64,000 nt of DNA from Mesorhizobium koreense. GTDB lineage: Bacteria; Pseudomonadota; Alphaproteobacteria; Rhizobiales; Rhizobiaceae. Position numbers and translations under genes: made by a program. Shown piece after piece: positions 5,918 to 36,878 of this stretch; position 1 is the first letter of the stretch; each line of letters begins with the position of its first letter. Where the stretch lies: NCBI RefSeq assembly GCF_031656215.1, contig NZ_CP134228.1:1674001-1738000 (forward strand). The letters run 5' to 3'. Under the pieces are notes generated by a model that did not search any database, was not told where the DNA came from, and saw only the letters and a program-made list of their open reading frames with translations.

Positions 5918-6378
5918 ATGGCCAACGAAAAAACCGCCAGATCGACGAAAGCCGCTTCCAAACAGGACGGGCCTGCGGTGCCGGTCCTTCTCTCGGGCGG
6001 CAATCCCCAGATCGCGAAGGGTTACGGCGATGGCCCGGTGCAAGCCTATATCGCGGCCATGCCCGGCTGGAAAAGCGCGGTCGGCCGCCGCTTGGACGCG
6101 CTGATCGAGCGCACCGTTCCCGGCGTGCAGAAGGCGTCAAATGGAACTCGCCTTTCTACGGGATGGAAGACCAGGGCTGGTTCCTGAGCCTTCACTGCTT
6201 CACGAAATACATCAAGGTGACGTTCTTTCGTGGCGCGATGCTCGATCCGCTTCCGCCTGGAACCTCCAAAATGAAGGATGTGCGCCATTTCGATATAAGC
6301 GAGGACGCGGAATTCGACGAGGCGCGGTTCGCTGACTGGGTGAAGCAGGCCAGCGAACTTCCCGGTGAGCGGATGTAA
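5918..6378 (+). pseudogene. DUF1801-domain gene broken by a one-base frameshift
   Basis: The first frame (5918 on) encodes an N-terminus ending ...ERTVPGVQKA and then drifts into unrelated residues to a stop at 6187. A second frame carries on with VKWNSPFYGMEDQGWFL to 6378, ending SELPGERM. Together they make one DUF1801 (PF08818-like) protein of about 153 residues. The break lies at about 6136-6138: the expected GCG-GTC (Ala-Val) reads GCG-TC, so one G is missing. Either the gene is inactivated or the assembly has a single-base error. Function of DUF1801 proteins is poorly defined. Confidence 0.8.
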
Positions 6379-6397
6379 GCCGGTCGCTGCCTTGCCC

Positions 6398-7075
6398 TCA
6401 GCCGCCCGCGGCGGTGTCGATGAAGCTTTTCGCCTCGGTGCTCGCCCATGCGGCCGGCCCGTTCATGTGGGTCATGAGACAGCCATCCTTGTCGATCAGG
6501 AGTGTCACCGGCAGGCCGAGTGCCAGGCCGCGATCCTTCAGTTCGTTGAAGAGCGCCATCGTGTGGTCGCTGTAATAGGCGAGCGTGGTGGCGCCGGTCT
6601 CGGCCAGGAATTTCTTCGGCTTGTCGTCGCCGCCGGTGTCGGCATTGACCGCGACCACCTGGAAGCCGGACCCGCCCTTTTCCTTCTGCAGAGCGTCAAG
6701 TTCGGGCATCTCGGCGCGGCAGGGCGCACACCATGTCGCCCAGAGGTTCATGAGCACGGTCTTGCCCTTGAAATCGGCGAGTTTGAGCGGCTTGCCGTCG
6801 GGGCCGTTGAAGGAGAGCCCGGCGAGGCTCACCGGCGGGCCCGACGCGGACATCGCCGCCACGCTGCCGGTTGCGGCGGCAGCGAGTTTCTTCGCTTTGT
6901 CCGCCTTCACCGCGCAGCCGTCCGGAGCCGAAGCTTTAGTGCTCACGGTCTCGGCCGGATTGTTGCCAGAGGGCCGTTCCGTCACGTATAGGGCAAATCC
7001 GGCCACGACGATGCAAAGGGCGATCAGGGTCGCCACGATGCGCGCCGCCGGCCAGGATTTCGTTCCGTCCGACAT
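6398..7075 (-). CDS. tlpA: TlpA-like thiol:disulfide interchange protein
   Basis: A 225-residue membrane-anchored periplasmic thioredoxin-like protein. One N-terminal transmembrane segment (about 12-31) is followed by a linker and a redoxin domain with WATWCAPCR, giving the Cys116-x-x-Cys119 pair, and a cis-Pro region '[10 protein letters not shown]'. TlpA proteins reduce periplasmic thiols, for instance in cytochrome oxidase maturation. An in-frame TTG exists at 7081, but AGGAG is spaced 7-8 bases from ATG 7075. Divergent from argH with only 26 bases between starts, the arrangement usual in Rhizobiales. Confidence 0.9.
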
Positions 7076-7101
7076 TTCCAATCTCCTTCCGACCGGTAAA
7101 C

Positions 7102-8526
7102 ATGATGAGTGAAAAAAAGGCCAGCAATCAGATGTGGGGCGGACGATTTGCCTCGGGTCCTTCGGCGGTCATGGAGGCGATCAATGCCTCGATCGGTTTC
7201 GACAGGAAGCTCTACGCCGAGGACATTCGCGGCTCGCTGGCGCATGCGGCGATGCTGGCGAAGACCGGCATCCTGTCGGCCGAGGATAGCGAGAAGATCG
7301 CGCGCGGGCTCAACACGATTTCGTCAAAGATGGACGAAGGCAGGTTCGAGTTCTCGAAGCGGCTCGAGGACATACACATGAACATCGAGGCCGCGCTTGC
7401 CGAACTGATCGGACCGGCGGCCGGGCGGCTGCACACGGCGCGCTCGCGCAACGACCAGGTCGCGGTCGATTTCCGGCTTTGGGTCAAGGAGGAGACGCAG
7501 CGGGTGGCGGCGGCCTTGCAAGCGCTCATCGCCGTGCTGCTCGACCGTGCCGAGGAACATGCCCAGACCGTCATGCCCGGCTTCACCCATCTGCAATCCG
7601 CGCAGCCCGTCACCTTCGGCCATCATCTGATGGCCTATGTGGAGATGTTCGGTCGCGACCTCTGGCGGGTACGCGATGCGATCGAGCGCATGGACGAGAG
7701 CCCGCTCGGAGCCGCCGCGCTCGCCGGCACGGGCTTCCCGATCGACCGGCACATGACGGCGAAGGAACTCGGCTTCCGCGAACCGACGCGCAACTCCATC
7801 GATTCGGTCTCCGACCGCGATTTCGCGCTGGAATTCCTGGCGCTCGCTTCGATCGCCGGCGTGCATCTGTCGCGCATGGCGGAGGAGATCGTCATCTGGT
7901 CGACGCCGCAATTCGGCTTCGTCCGTCTGTCCGACTCTTTCTCCACCGGCTCCTCGATCATGCCGCAGAAGAAGAACCCGGACGCCGCCGAACTGGTGCG
8001 CGCCAAGACCGGCCGGCTGAACGGCCATCTGGTCGCGCTGCTGACGGTGATGAAGGGGCTGCCGCTCGCCTATTCCAAGGACATGCAAGAAGACAAGGAG
8101 GCGGTCTTCGACGCGGCCGAGACGCTCGACCTGATGCTGGCCGCGATGACCGGCATGATCGGCGACCTCGTCGTCAACGAAGCCGCCATGAAGAAGGCGG
8201 CGGGTGCCGGCTATTCCACCGCGACCGACCTTGCCGATTGGCTGGTGCGCGAGGCGGGGCTGCCCTTCCGCGAGGCGCACCATGTCACCGGCCGCGCTGT
8301 GGCGCTTGCCGAGGACAAAAGATGCGGGCTGGAGAAGCTGCCGCTGGCGGAGCTGCAGGCGATCCACCCGGCCATCACGGATGACGTCTATTCGGTGCTC
8401 TCGGTGCGGAATTCGGTCAGGAGCCGCACCTCGTTCGGCGGCACCGCGCCGAGCGAGGTACGCCGGCAGATCCGCTATTGGCGCAAGCGGTTGAAACAGG
8501 GTGCGCGCCCGGGCAAAGTCCGCTAA
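7102..8526 (+). CDS. argH: Argininosuccinate lyase
   Basis: A 474-residue enzyme of the fumarase/aspartase superfamily that splits argininosuccinate into arginine and fumarate, the last arginine biosynthetic step. The superfamily signature [11 protein letters not shown] lies at about residue 283, and 'HTARSRNDQ' and '[10 protein letters not shown]' with the catalytic His are present. It begins ATG-ATG, so the first or second codon (7105) may be used. It heads argH-lptM-lysA, with 33 bases to lptM. Confidence 0.97.
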
Positions 8527-30503: not shown

Positions 30504-31316
30504 CTATTGCGATGCCTCCAACTTGTCGGCCCGGACGGTGACGGTACCGATCTTGGTGCCCACGGAGGCGGAGACAGGCACGAACATGCCGGTCGCGCCC
30601 ATCGGCGCGAAGGCAACGGTCATAGCGGTCTTTTTCAGATATTCGATGGTGGAACTGCCGGGCTTGTAGCCGCCGACCGGCGTGAAGCGGGCCGTACATA
30701 TGGTCGCCTCGCCGGAATAGCCGGGGATCGTGAACGGCTTTTTGCCAGCGTAGCTGAAGCGTATGTCGGCACGAAGCTCGCCGTCATAGTAACGGAACGT
30801 CTTCGTGCACACGTCGGCCGGCTTTTCGGCGCGCACCATGATGCCCGAAAGGGGATCGGTGGCCGCCTTGAGGTCCGCGGCGGAGAGCGCCACCCATTTC
30901 TTGCGTTTCTTCAGAGGTGGGATGTTCAGCGTGCGGGAGACCGCGCCGTCCGCGTAATCGATCTCGGTACGCTTGTTCTTCTTTCCGGATTTATAGGCGA
31001 TCACAAAGGAATCCGGCGCCACGCCGTCCCCCGACAGGTGTCCGCGCACGCTCGTCGTGCCCTTGGTATCGTCGATCACGCGGGCGAGGCCGGCCGTGGC
31101 GATGGTGCCGTCGATCCGGATCGCATCGCCGTCGAGCATACTGGTGAAACTGGTACGGGCGAGGGTAAGGCCGTAGATGGAGACCGTATAATCGGCTGTG
31201 AACTTTTTCGGTGCAGCCACAGCCGCCTGTGGCGCTGCCGCGAAAATCACCGCAATAAGGGCCGCCATGGCGGAAACAACCGAGAGGGAGGTAGCCGGCG
31301 ACGGATGGTCAGCCAT
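30504..31316 (-). CDS. Exported DUF3108-domain protein
   Basis: A 270-residue secreted or periplasmic protein with a signal peptide (about 1-34, 'SVVSAMAALIAVIFAAAPQAAVAA'). 'FTADYTVSIYGLTLARTSFTSML' near 40-62 and later 'TDPLSGIMV' with 'RYYDGELRADIRFSY' match DUF3108, a beta-rich domain of unknown function. Two Cys (about 180 and 222) could form a disulfide. Divergent from rpmB. Confidence 0.85.
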   Translation of the reverse strand: MADHPSPATSLSVVSAMAALIAVIFAAAPQAAVAAPKKFTADYTVSIYGLTLARTSFTSMLDGDAIRIDGTIATAGLARVIDDTKGTTSVRGHLSGDGVAPDSFVIAYKSGKKNKRTEIDYADGAVSRTLNIPPLKKRKKWVALSAADLKAATDPLSGIMVRAEKPADVCTKTFRYYDGELRADIRFSYAGKKPFTIPGYSGEATICTARFTPVGGYKPGSSTIEYLKKTAMTVAFAPMGATGMFVPVSASVGTKIGTVTVRADKLEASQ

Positions 31317-33438: not shown

Positions 33439-34020
33439 ATGTTCGGCACCCTCGGCGGCAAGCTGAAGACATGGATCACCGCCGGCGCCGGAACCATCGC
33501 GGCGATATTGGTGGCTGGGCTTCTTGGCGCGTTCGGCGCTCTTCCCAAGCCCGAGATGCAGCACTTCGCTCCCGATACCACGATCGAGACCGGGCAATGG
33601 CTGATCAAGCCGCTCCGCCTCCATGTCGGGGAGGAGCGCGTCTACGGCCTTCCTGTCAAACCCGACGAGAAGGCCGTCATCCTCGAGGTCGAACTGACCA
33701 ATCGCACGGCCGAATCCACAAAGGACTATTTCACGGCCATCCAGCCCGCCGAGCCTTTCGCCGATACCACCGAAAGCCCGCTGATTGTCCTGACACGCGA
33801 CCAGACGATGTCGCCGGAGCTTCAGCCGGGCCTGCCCGAACGGATGGCCTATATCTGGACACTGCCGAAGGACCGTGCGCTTCCGGCCTCACTTTCCTTC
33901 ATCGTCAATACGCAAATCTACAAGGCACGCGATAATCTCTACGGGACGCCGGGTTGGTTCAACAAGCATCCCGCCGGAACGGTCTCGCTTCCCTTGCAGG
34001 CCAAAGGGGGTAGCGCGTGA
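33439..34020 (+). CDS. Membrane-anchored protein, first of a three-gene cassette
   Basis: A 193-residue protein, not recognised. It has one N-terminal helix (about 13-35, 'ITAGAGTIAAILVAGLLGAFGAL') and an exported beta-rich domain. 'AVILEVELTNRTAESTKDYF' (about 74-93) and 'PGLPERMAYIWTLPKD' (about 134-149) resemble DUF4352-type immunoglobulin-like folds (long-range guess). The PGLP...P-x-D motif recurs in the next gene. Its end overlaps the GTG start of that gene by four bases, implying coupled translation. Confidence 0.7.
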   Translation: MFGTLGGKLKTWITAGAGTIAAILVAGLLGAFGALPKPEMQHFAPDTTIETGQWLIKPLRLHVGEERVYGLPVKPDEKAVILEVELTNRTAESTKDYFTAIQPAEPFADTTESPLIVLTRDQTMSPELQPGLPERMAYIWTLPKDRALPASLSFIVNTQIYKARDNLYGTPGWFNKHPAGTVSLPLQAKGGSA

Positions 34021-34595
34021 TCCGCCGCGTCGCGAACGTTGTCCTTCTCGTAGTCGCGGTGGTGCTCTGTTACGGCATGCGGACTTCAACGCCGCATTAT
34101 GCCCAACTGACCGGACCGATACCTGTCCGTGGGGGGATAGGGGATACGATCGAAGCGCGCAGCTTCTCCCTCAAGGTCGCGAAGATCGGATTCGCGCGCA
34201 CGCTCAAACTCAATGCGTTCGGCAAGGAGAAGATGCTGACCACCGGCGGCCTTTGGGCCATCGTGACGGCGGAGCTTGCGGCGAAGGACGCATCGGTATC
34301 GGTATGGGGCGGCATGTGGAGAGGGCCGGGAGGCTTGCGCTACCACACGACCGAGAGGCTCGGCGTAGTGCGGAGCGCACCGCCCTTTTTTCTTGAGCCG
34401 GGCTTGCCGAGGAAGGTCCGGTTCGTCTTCGAGATACCCGCCGATCAGGCGGCGAATGCGACGCTCCTGGTGTCGAGCGCGCGGTTTTCGGCGCTCGATT
34501 CCGAGGCGCGCGTTGCGCTCGGCACCGTGGAAACGGGCGCGGACAGCCTGCCGGCCGGCGTGATCGAAACTTTCGATCTGGACCAGCCGATCTGA
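34017..34595 (+). CDS. Membrane-anchored protein, second of the cassette
   Basis: A 192-residue protein, unassigned. A hydrophobic N-terminus (about 5-20, 'VANVVLLVVAVVLCYGM') acts as anchor or signal. The exported part includes 'GIGDTIEARSFSLKVAKI' (about 43-60), as in DUF4352-like domains, and 'EPGLPRKVRFVFEIPADQ' (about 126-143), aligning with the motif of the first gene. It starts with GTG within GTGA of the upstream stop and ends nine bases before the third gene. Confidence 0.7.
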   Translation: MIRRVANVVLLVVAVVLCYGMRTSTPHYAQLTGPIPVRGGIGDTIEARSFSLKVAKIGFARTLKLNAFGKEKMLTTGGLWAIVTAELAAKDASVSVWGGMWRGPGGLRYHTTERLGVVRSAPPFFLEPGLPRKVRFVFEIPADQAANATLLVSSARFSALDSEARVALGTVETGADSLPAGVIETFDLDQPI

Positions 34596-34604
34596 GGAGG
34601 CCGC

Positions 34605-35192
34605 ATGCAAGCTGTCGATACGATGAGCCGCGGTCGAATAGCGGAGGGCCACTCCGGGACGGAACGGAAATGGCGGCGGCGGGCGCTCTGGGCGCTTGTC
34701 GTGCTGCTGCCCGCGGTGATTGTCGAGACAAGCTATGGAAGCGTGCGCACATTCCTCGGGGACAAGGATCTGATCGCCCGAGACGTCGCCTGGGGGAGCG
34801 CGGCGCATTTCGGCGGCAGCGACTGGCAACTGACGGATCTGCGCACGGCGCTCGGAATGGAGGGACTGCCGGCCAACGCCGTTCCGGTGCTCGCGGATTT
34901 CACCGTAACGGTCGGCGATCCCGACATGCAGAAATTGTGGGTTGGCTGCAAGATATTCCTGACCGACGCGGCGGGGCGGCAATGGACGCCGACCGCGGCC
35001 ATCTCGTTGAGGGCGCCGGCCGATGTCATGATCTGCGCGTCGGCGGCTTTTTCCGGCGCAAAGAGAGGCGACAAGCTGAAGGTCCGTGAGACGTTCCTGG
35101 TGCCGAAGGATGCTATAGCGACCATCCAGGCGGCCGTCGGAGTGGGGAGCGAGCGGCCCTATTATCTCCGCTTCCGGCGGCCGGAATCCTGA
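34605..35192 (+). CDS. Membrane-anchored protein, third of the cassette
   Basis: A 195-residue protein, unassigned, with a basic cytoplasmic start, one membrane helix (about 27-45, 'RRALWALVVLLPAVIVETSY') and an exported domain. It shares the 'K-V-R-E-T-F-L-V-P-K-D' type motif (about 162-172) with the two preceding genes, suggesting tandem paralogy. Two Cys (about 112 and 143) may form a disulfide. Its stop abuts that of the convergent polytopic protein with no spacer. Confidence 0.7.
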   Translation: MQAVDTMSRGRIAEGHSGTERKWRRRALWALVVLLPAVIVETSYGSVRTFLGDKDLIARDVAWGSAAHFGGSDWQLTDLRTALGMEGLPANAVPVLADFTVTVGDPDMQKLWVGCKIFLTDAAGRQWTPTAAISLRAPADVMICASAAFSGAKRGDKLKVRETFLVPKDAIATIQAAVGVGSERPYYLRFRRPES

Positions 35193-36470
35193 TCAGGCGG
35201 CCGCCCCGACCGCCGTTGCGGTGCGACGCGGCAGCGCGAATGCGGTTTCCAGGATTGCGGCGAGGAAGCAAATGCGCAACGGCTCGACCAGAATGCCGGT
35301 CGAGGAATCCTGGAAGGGACTGCCGAACAGCAGGGTGACTCCCTGGGCGATGACCTGCCAGGTGTCGAGATCGTGAGCGCCGATCAGCCGCGTCGCGCCG
35401 AGCCAGAGCCAGGCCGAGCCCCAGTCGATCAGCCGGTAGCCGACGATCAGCACCACGATCAGGAGCAGGCCGGAACTCAGCGTGATGCGCACGCCATTGG
35501 CGATCGGGAGATAGCGAGAGCGATAGCCCTTGATGAAATGCCCGACGAAGTCGCGCAGGAATTTCGGCACGCGCGCGTAACGTTCGCCGATCTGCCCGAT
35601 GCGCCGGTGGGCGCCGATCAACTCGCGGTCGTCGCGTACGTCGTAGCCGTAAATAAGCGCCGCCATGACCAGCCAGATGATCGGCAGTAGCATGTAGAAG
35701 AAAAGGTTGATCGCGGTGGTCGTGGTATTGACCGAGGTCATTTCCACGGGCGGTGGCGTGGCGGCGGCAGCGGACGTGACCGGCCCGGCTATCGTATCGG
35801 CCGCCGTCTGAAGGAAAGACCATATGTTCCTGCTCATGATCCAATGCAGGGCGCTGTCCTTCCAGCGGCTGATGACGTAGAGGCCGACGAAGATCCAGTT
35901 CGTCTCGCAGACGACCACCACGATCTCCCACAAGGAAGTGGCCGACCGTTTCTGCATGGTCTTGGCGAATCGGCGGATAACCCATGAGATCGCCACCGAC
36001 AGCAGCAGCCAGCGCGAATCGAGCACATCCAGAACGTTGTTGCTTACGCCGAAGGGCGTGAGTTCAAGCGACAGGCGGGAATATTGGCGCACGATATCGC
36101 CGAGGAATCCCCATGCCGCGTAATAGGCGAAGAAGGGCAGGAGCGCGATGGTGACCATGCGGGCGAAGCCTGAACCTGCCCCCGCTTCGGCGGGTCCGTC
36201 GCTTTCCGCGGATGCCTGAGCGGCGCGGATGGATGGCAGGCCGGGGCGCAGGACCTGGAACATCGCCACCGTGACGATAAGCTGCGCGAGCGCCACGAGA
36301 GTCAACAGCGCCAGCCCTGCGAAGTGGTTGTGGATGCTGACCTGCGCGGCAAGCTGCATCAGCAGGTCACCCGCGAAGATGCCGATGAGGACGAGGGCGA
36401 CAAGCTGCGGCCAGAAGCGGAAGAGAAGAGAAAAGGTCAGCCCGACTGGGCGTATGGCGTCTGCGAACAT
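35193..36470 (-). CDS. Polytopic membrane protein of unknown function
   Basis: About 425 residues with seven or eight hydrophobic segments, for example 'LFRFWPQLVALVLIGIFAGDLLM' near 10-35, 'FAGLALLTLVALAQLIVTVAMF' near 47-68, 'NLFFYMLLPIIWLVMAALIYGYD' near 250-275 and 'ITLSSGLLLIVVLIVGYRLI' near 325-345. No transporter motif was recognised. A GTG 24 bases upstream could extend it. Facing the three-gene cassette with zero intergenic space, it may belong to the same system (inference). Confidence 0.65.
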   Translation of the reverse strand: MFADAIRPVGLTFSLLFRFWPQLVALVLIGIFAGDLLMQLAAQVSIHNHFAGLALLTLVALAQLIVTVAMFQVLRPGLPSIRAAQASAESDGPAEAGAGSGFARMVTIALLPFFAYYAAWGFLGDIVRQYSRLSLELTPFGVSNNVLDVLDSRWLLLSVAISWVIRRFAKTMQKRSATSLWEIVVVVCETNWIFVGLYVISRWKDSALHWIMSRNIWSFLQTAADTIAGPVTSAAAATPPPVEMTSVNTTTTAINLFFYMLLPIIWLVMAALIYGYDVRDDRELIGAHRRIGQIGERYARVPKFLRDFVGHFIKGYRSRYLPIANGVRITLSSGLLLIVVLIVGYRLIDWGSAWLWLGATRLIGAHDLDTWQVIAQGVTLLFGSPFQDSSTGILVEPLRICFLAAILETAFALPRRTATAVGAAA

Positions 36471-36653: not shown

Positions 36654-36878
36654 ATGCGATGGGCGACGGGTGCTGTGTTAATTTCCGCGTTGCTGCTTTG
36701 CGGATCGGGGACGGCGATGGCGCAGACCATGGCCGAAAAGCTGGCGTGCAAGGCCGACTTCCAGAAGCTCTGCCCCGGCGTCAAGCCGGGCGACGGGCGT
36801 CCGTTCGCCTGCCTTGCCGAACACAAGGACAAGCTTTCGCCGTCCTGTGCCAAGGTGATCGCGGCTCACAAGAAATAA
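36654..36878 (+). CDS. Exported Cys-rich repeat protein
   Basis: A 74-residue secreted protein: signal peptide 1-23 (ending GTAMAQ) and one cysteine-rich repeat with Cys at about 32, 40, 53 and 65 in the order C-x7-C-x12-C-x11-C. 'GVKPGDGRPFACLAEHKDKLSPSC' matches the cysteine-rich repeat of Golgi apparatus protein 1 (PF00839), whose bacterial role is unknown. The start has GGAGGGGGG 6 bases upstream, an unusually strong ribosome-binding site. Confidence 0.75.
   Translation: MRWATGAVLISALLLCGSGTAMAQTMAEKLACKADFQKLCPGVKPGDGRPFACLAEHKDKLSPSCAKVIAAHKK

Follow-up and report, generated by a model that had tools for sequence, protein, structure and literature searches.

A patchy, horizontally moving four-gene cassette of Mesorhizobium koreense, possibly encoding an inner-membrane complex with periplasmic beta-sandwich heads

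The genes of the cassette and the two motifs discussed here are presented in Table 1. They are located in a stretch of 64,000 nucleotides of the Mesorhizobium koreense contig NZ_CP134228.1, referred to below as the window. Genes A and B overlap by four bases, GTGA, with the start codon of B lying within the end of A. Gene C follows B after a gap of nine bases and has a good ribosome-binding site, GAGGAGG, upstream of it. From the overlap and the spacing we infer that A, B and C form one transcript. The stop codon of C (35190-35192) directly abuts that of D (35193-35195), with no base between the two, and an upstream GTG provides an alternative start for D that would extend the protein to 433 residues. 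An earlier reading, made from the sequence only, had described three tandem genes that overlap or lie nine bases apart and an opposite-strand gene ending stop-to-stop with the third. The positions of the open reading frames bear out this layout. The base composition of the cassette shows no departure from its surroundings. A DUF3108 protein (E 1.3e-15) is encoded about 2 kb from the cassette on the reverse strand, at window positions 30504-31316. A small secreted cysteine-containing protein is encoded on the forward strand at 36654-36878, downstream of the start of D and divergent from it.

Table 1. Genes of the cassette and sequence motifs within them, in window positions
Feature	Position	Strand	Description	Basis
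Gene A	33439-34020	+	ATG start, 193 aa; N-terminal membrane helix and predicted DUF4352-type beta-sandwich	ORF list; AlphaFold2, PDB matches
Gene B	34017-34595	+	GTG start, 192 aa; N-terminal membrane helix and probable DUF4352-like domain	ORF list; homologue matches, profile relation to A
Gene C	34605-35192	+	ATG start, 195 aa; N-terminal membrane helix and probable exported domain with C115 and C144	ORF list; alignment of 75 homologues
Gene D	35193-36470	-	425 aa from ATG at 36470	ORF list
W-T-L-P-K-D in A	33859-33876	+	Residues 140-145 or close; coordinates within a codon or two	
A-x-A in D	35763-35771	-	Residues 234-236, second periplasmic loop; candidate signal peptidase I site	

Profile searches find A, B, C and D all together in 96 of 99 loci, 94 of which are distinct, five genomes being represented twice. 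Two of the three exceptions (L047 and L088) run off their contigs, and the third, L071, has D alone. In this locus, from a Mesorhizobium MAG, D is found at 6001-7296 without A, B and C and away from the contig ends. The loci were gathered via A or via D; the count therefore tells that the other genes accompany the one searched for, but has no bearing on whether a partner can also occur alone. The dN/dS values are mostly 0.07-0.3, indicating purifying selection, with one very close pair being noisier.

Most loci have the convergent arrangement of A-B-C against D, while in 17 loci the order is D-A-B-C on a single strand. In this same-strand form the ATG of A falls within the end of D, with an overlap of 8 bases in 13 loci of Mesorhizobium and of 4 bases in Shinella. 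No other observation ties D and A-C into one system as strongly as this. Mapping the gene order on the tree of D, a quickly built tree in which several branches are long, gives three changes, of which at least two are forced by well-supported branches. The sequence-only reading had proposed a shared system and had named the lack of joint conservation in related genomes as the outcome that would speak against it. The four genes are instead kept together across genera, in two gene orders and with the D/A overlap, which strongly supports the proposal. GC-rich DNA gives many spurious reading frames, and the four could be considered chance frames or neighbours without a common function. This explanation deserves next to no weight, since homologues of all four genes recur in nearly all loci, are under purifying selection and remain together where they have been rearranged. 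Chance frames as such are ruled out by the homologues and the dN/dS values.

The distance matrices of A and D correlate at 0.92-0.95, compared with at most 0.10 in permutations; this indicates co-inheritance, but not interaction. No fifth gene is conserved alongside the cassette, the recurrent neighbours being ABC-transporter and other unrelated genes, and the survey of conserved neighbours found no ATPase, toxin or regulator travelling with it. A TonB-dependent receptor gene is located between D and C in one Bordetella locus (L086, 7431-9548), and a receptor gene 77% identical to it is located near the cassette in a second (L078, 2772-4862). Such a gene adjoins the cassette in these two Bordetella only and is therefore not a conserved fifth member. 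Some copies of the cassette are interrupted. In plasmid pSymA of S. medicae ml60 one in-frame stop (L004, 7795-7797) interrupts B, which is intact in strain WSM419 (L129). Profile matches are split over two frames for C in L059, for A in L077 and for D in L093, which may reflect decay of these copies or errors of assembly.

The cassette is a patchy, partly plasmid-borne and horizontally moving unit that crosses classes. None of A, B and D was found in 40 sampled nearest relatives. Within the order, 15 of 397 genomes have D, one of the 15 with just a weak fragment. It is also present in 6 of 398 genomes drawn from the phylum, all from the family of the window; among 385 genomes drawn from the class it occurs only in the window's own genome. 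The conservation across Hyphomicrobiales that the earlier reading had in mind is thus real but sporadic, and the cassette is also found in Betaproteobacteria. The D profile gave 225 relatives among 84,980 species genomes, and the best 80 of the 225 were retained for the loci. Homologues of A turned up in a protein search of plasmid records, on plasmids of rhizobia and of Paracoccus. As annotated in S. meliloti and on two plasmids of Shinella, the A gene is followed by two 'hypothetical proteins'; a third, of about 430 residues, is encoded either on the opposite strand or ahead of A on its own strand.

The D proteins of Bordetella, Achromobacter and Pigmentiphaga are 59-64% identical to the window D, while most Rhizobium D proteins are only 45-49% identical to it. 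The betaproteobacterial sequences branch beside those of Mesorhizobium and Phyllobacterium. The identities and the tree placement together indicate that the cassette has moved between Alpha- and Betaproteobacteria. In the window, yhhQ and secA are 4.7 kb apart, whereas in another genome of the same genus (L123, G003) the distance is 1.8 kb and an MFS-like gene (396 aa) lies between them, so the contents of this slot are variable. No cassette was found in viral contigs. The D protein of L096, recorded as 'Mycobacterium sp. KBS0706', groups with Inquilinus (SH-aLRT 100), and the name of the record may be wrong.

The AlphaFold2 model of A (pLDDT 89) consists of a helix at approximately residues 6-33 followed by a beta-sandwich. 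The alignments behind this model and that of D leave out the rows from plasmid records. Comparison of the A model with the PDB gives Z values of 8-11 for DUF4352-like sandwiches, above those of unrelated entries. The best match is the beta-sandwich of C. difficile CD630_09570 (5bxg; Z 11.3, 133 residues, 3.0 A), but its identity to A is only 8% and it is itself uncharacterised. The B. subtilis proteins YjhA (3cfu, Z 9.5) and YxkC (9a4z, Z 9.4), which belong to the DUF4352 family (Pfam PF11611), follow closely, and 4les, YcdA and a staphylococcal lipoprotein are also among the top matches. The general sandwich topology is shared with the PCuAC copper chaperones and the cupredoxin-like domains of AmoB/PmoB (Z 7-8). 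However, there is no copper-binding His, Met or Cys among the invariant residues of A, and a copper-chaperone role was rejected for this reason.

The DUF4352 profile matches 5 of 73 homologues of A (best E 1.1e-4) and 18 of 73 homologues of B (best E 2e-5). The best of the latter scores 25.3 bits, 0.6 bits below the Pfam cut-off of 25.9 bits. The window proteins A, B and C have no DUF4352 match in Pfam, and no tested protein reaches the cut-off. DUF4352, which the sequence-only reading had named as a family to be checked, is therefore a good lead that stays below the formal threshold. The same reading had assigned an exported beta domain to all three proteins. The confident structure model supports it for A and the near-threshold matches of the homologues support it for B; for C it is a putative assignment. 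The present arrangement differs from that of the known DUF4352 proteins in that two or three membrane-anchored members probably stand in tandem and are tied to a polytopic partner.

The relationship of the three proteins is uneven. Profile comparison supports the relatedness of A and B (hhalign E 4.4e-5, probability 69%). The similarity of A and C (E 0.004, probability 8%) is in the same register and only suggestive of a relationship, and the comparison of B with C gives no similarity. The tandem paralogy claimed earlier thus stands for A and B, may extend to A and C, and finds no support between B and C. A motif of the form F/W-x-[ILV]-P-[KA]-D is present in all three as WTLPKD in A, FEIPAD in B and FLVPKD in C, the strand carrying it in A being in register with the B and C motifs in the profile alignments. 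It had been described with phenylalanine in the first position, which holds for B and C; in A this residue is tryptophan. The sequence PGLP, noted before in A and B, is present in both. The alignment of 75 homologues of C contains two invariant cysteines, C115 and C144, which are consistent with a periplasmic disulfide.

The AlphaFold2 model of D is all helical and of moderate confidence (pLDDT 75). Hydropathy and charge, read by hand, suggest approximately eight transmembrane helices, with both ends and the basic loops inside. The earlier description of D as a multi-pass protein is in agreement with both. The window D and 57 homologues give nothing above chance level in Pfam and NCBIfam, transporter families included. 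The best Foldseek match of the D model has an E-value of 0.63, the VIA rows are short single helical hairpins, and the query model is itself moderate. Profiles of A, C and D give nothing significant against the sequences of solved structures, and the four proteins have no meaningful match in Pfam, NCBIfam, PADLOC or PHROGs. The family libraries hold no described system with such a layout. The heads of A and probably B therefore appear to fit a known fold class, while neither D nor the assembly as a whole has a name. With a D model of moderate confidence, this absence from family and solved-structure libraries is not proof of a new fold.

The four genes travel together in rhizobia, Bordetella and their relatives, which suggests that they probably build one membrane complex, although co-inheritance alone does not imply a complex. 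We give somewhat better than even credence to the reading in which this mobile module encodes an inner-membrane complex with periplasmic heads. D, with its eight or so helices, would form the core. A, B and C would each be anchored next to it by a single N-terminal helix, with their domains in the periplasm. The heads, beta-sandwiches of the DUF4352 type in the case of A and probably of B, would most likely bind protein, receiving or positioning a periplasmic partner, and D would anchor the heads or transduce the outcome. The kind of partner is a matter of speculation; a cell-wall enzyme may be considered. DacA is a D,D-carboxypeptidase of the cell wall, and the PDB entry of YxkC models YxkC with DacA. 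This parallel is a resemblance of folds at 8% identity, which may serve as a lead and makes nothing certain about partner or function.

The cassette could also be an accessory trait of resistance, immunity or uptake, with D as a transporter or shield and A-C as periplasmic subunits binding a substrate or a toxin. The patchy, plasmid-borne and cross-class spread is typical of niche traits, and the MFS-like gene that occupies the yhhQ-secA slot in the genome of the same genus is in line with this explanation. However, D matches no transporter family in Pfam and NCBIfam and, with a model of moderate confidence, no transporter fold, none of the four proteins has a match in PADLOC, the anti-phage defence collection, up to E 10, and no ATPase, toxin or regulator accompanies the cassette. 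We consider such a trait rather improbable. The linkage makes one testable unit of four separate 'hypothetical proteins' found in many genomes of rhizobia, Phyllobacterium, Bordetella and Achromobacter. Little is known of the biology of DUF4352-type domains, and the cassette gives access to them in Gram-negative bacteria.

The predicted second periplasmic loop of D contains an unusual conserved stretch. Ala234 is found in 57 of 57 homologues and Ala236 in 56 of 57, while residue 235 between them is among the most variable columns of D. This is the sole column pair of such kind in the protein. The model is poor here (pLDDT below 50 for residues 229-241), and hypervariable columns predominate. 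Glu243 is 95% conserved, and the whole stretch reads A-x-A...P-x-E. Each of the 87 distinct D proteins carries A-x-A here except one, which has A-x-S; in two others the alignment is faulty at this point, and the motif was recognised from the sequence itself. Small residues at positions -3 and -1, as in A-x-A, are characteristic of sites cut by type I signal peptidase. D has them on the periplasmic side, as polytopic proteins processed by signal peptidase do.

The inner-membrane complex might accordingly be modified in one respect: D may be a polyprotein, cut by signal peptidase I after Ala236 into subunits of five and three helices, so that the system would comprise five polypeptides. The pattern of the invariant Ala234, hypervariable residue 235 and near-invariant Ala236, with mostly Ala at +1 in a poorly modelled loop, agrees with such a cut, and sites such as SAFA/DP, TAWA/AP and KAQA/AT resemble the ends of signal peptides. 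There is a precedent in LtaS of S. aureus, a polytopic protein with a signal-peptidase-like site after its block of transmembrane helices, which is cut by the signal peptidase SpsB (PMC10865820). D differs from LtaS in lacking a large extracellular enzyme domain; three further predicted helices make up its C-terminal part, and its cleavage is putative. About 34 residues of only mild hydrophobicity separate helix 5 from the site. A home-made signal-peptide score, based on 23 training examples of which some are doubtful and compared against the cassette loci, ranks the sites higher than background but far short of signal peptides. No split D gene was found. We therefore regard cleavage of D as unlikely, though worth keeping in view. 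The fuller picture, of an unnamed mobile envelope machine with its core polyprotein split between helices 5 and 6, five subunits and three DUF4352-type heads, is slightly less likely again. If the A-x-A site is real, D would add a Gram-negative example to the polytopic proteins that signal peptidase matures.

The A-x-A...P-x-E stretch could instead be a docking peptide for one of the beta-sandwich heads, which appears about as doubtful as that fuller picture. Small alanines flanking a free position would be an unusual docking motif. On the other hand, a short conserved motif in a disordered periplasmic loop, together with the conserved Glu243, could serve this purpose, and the predicted fold of A also resembles the peptide-binding adaptin appendage domains, although these matches are weak (Z under 6).
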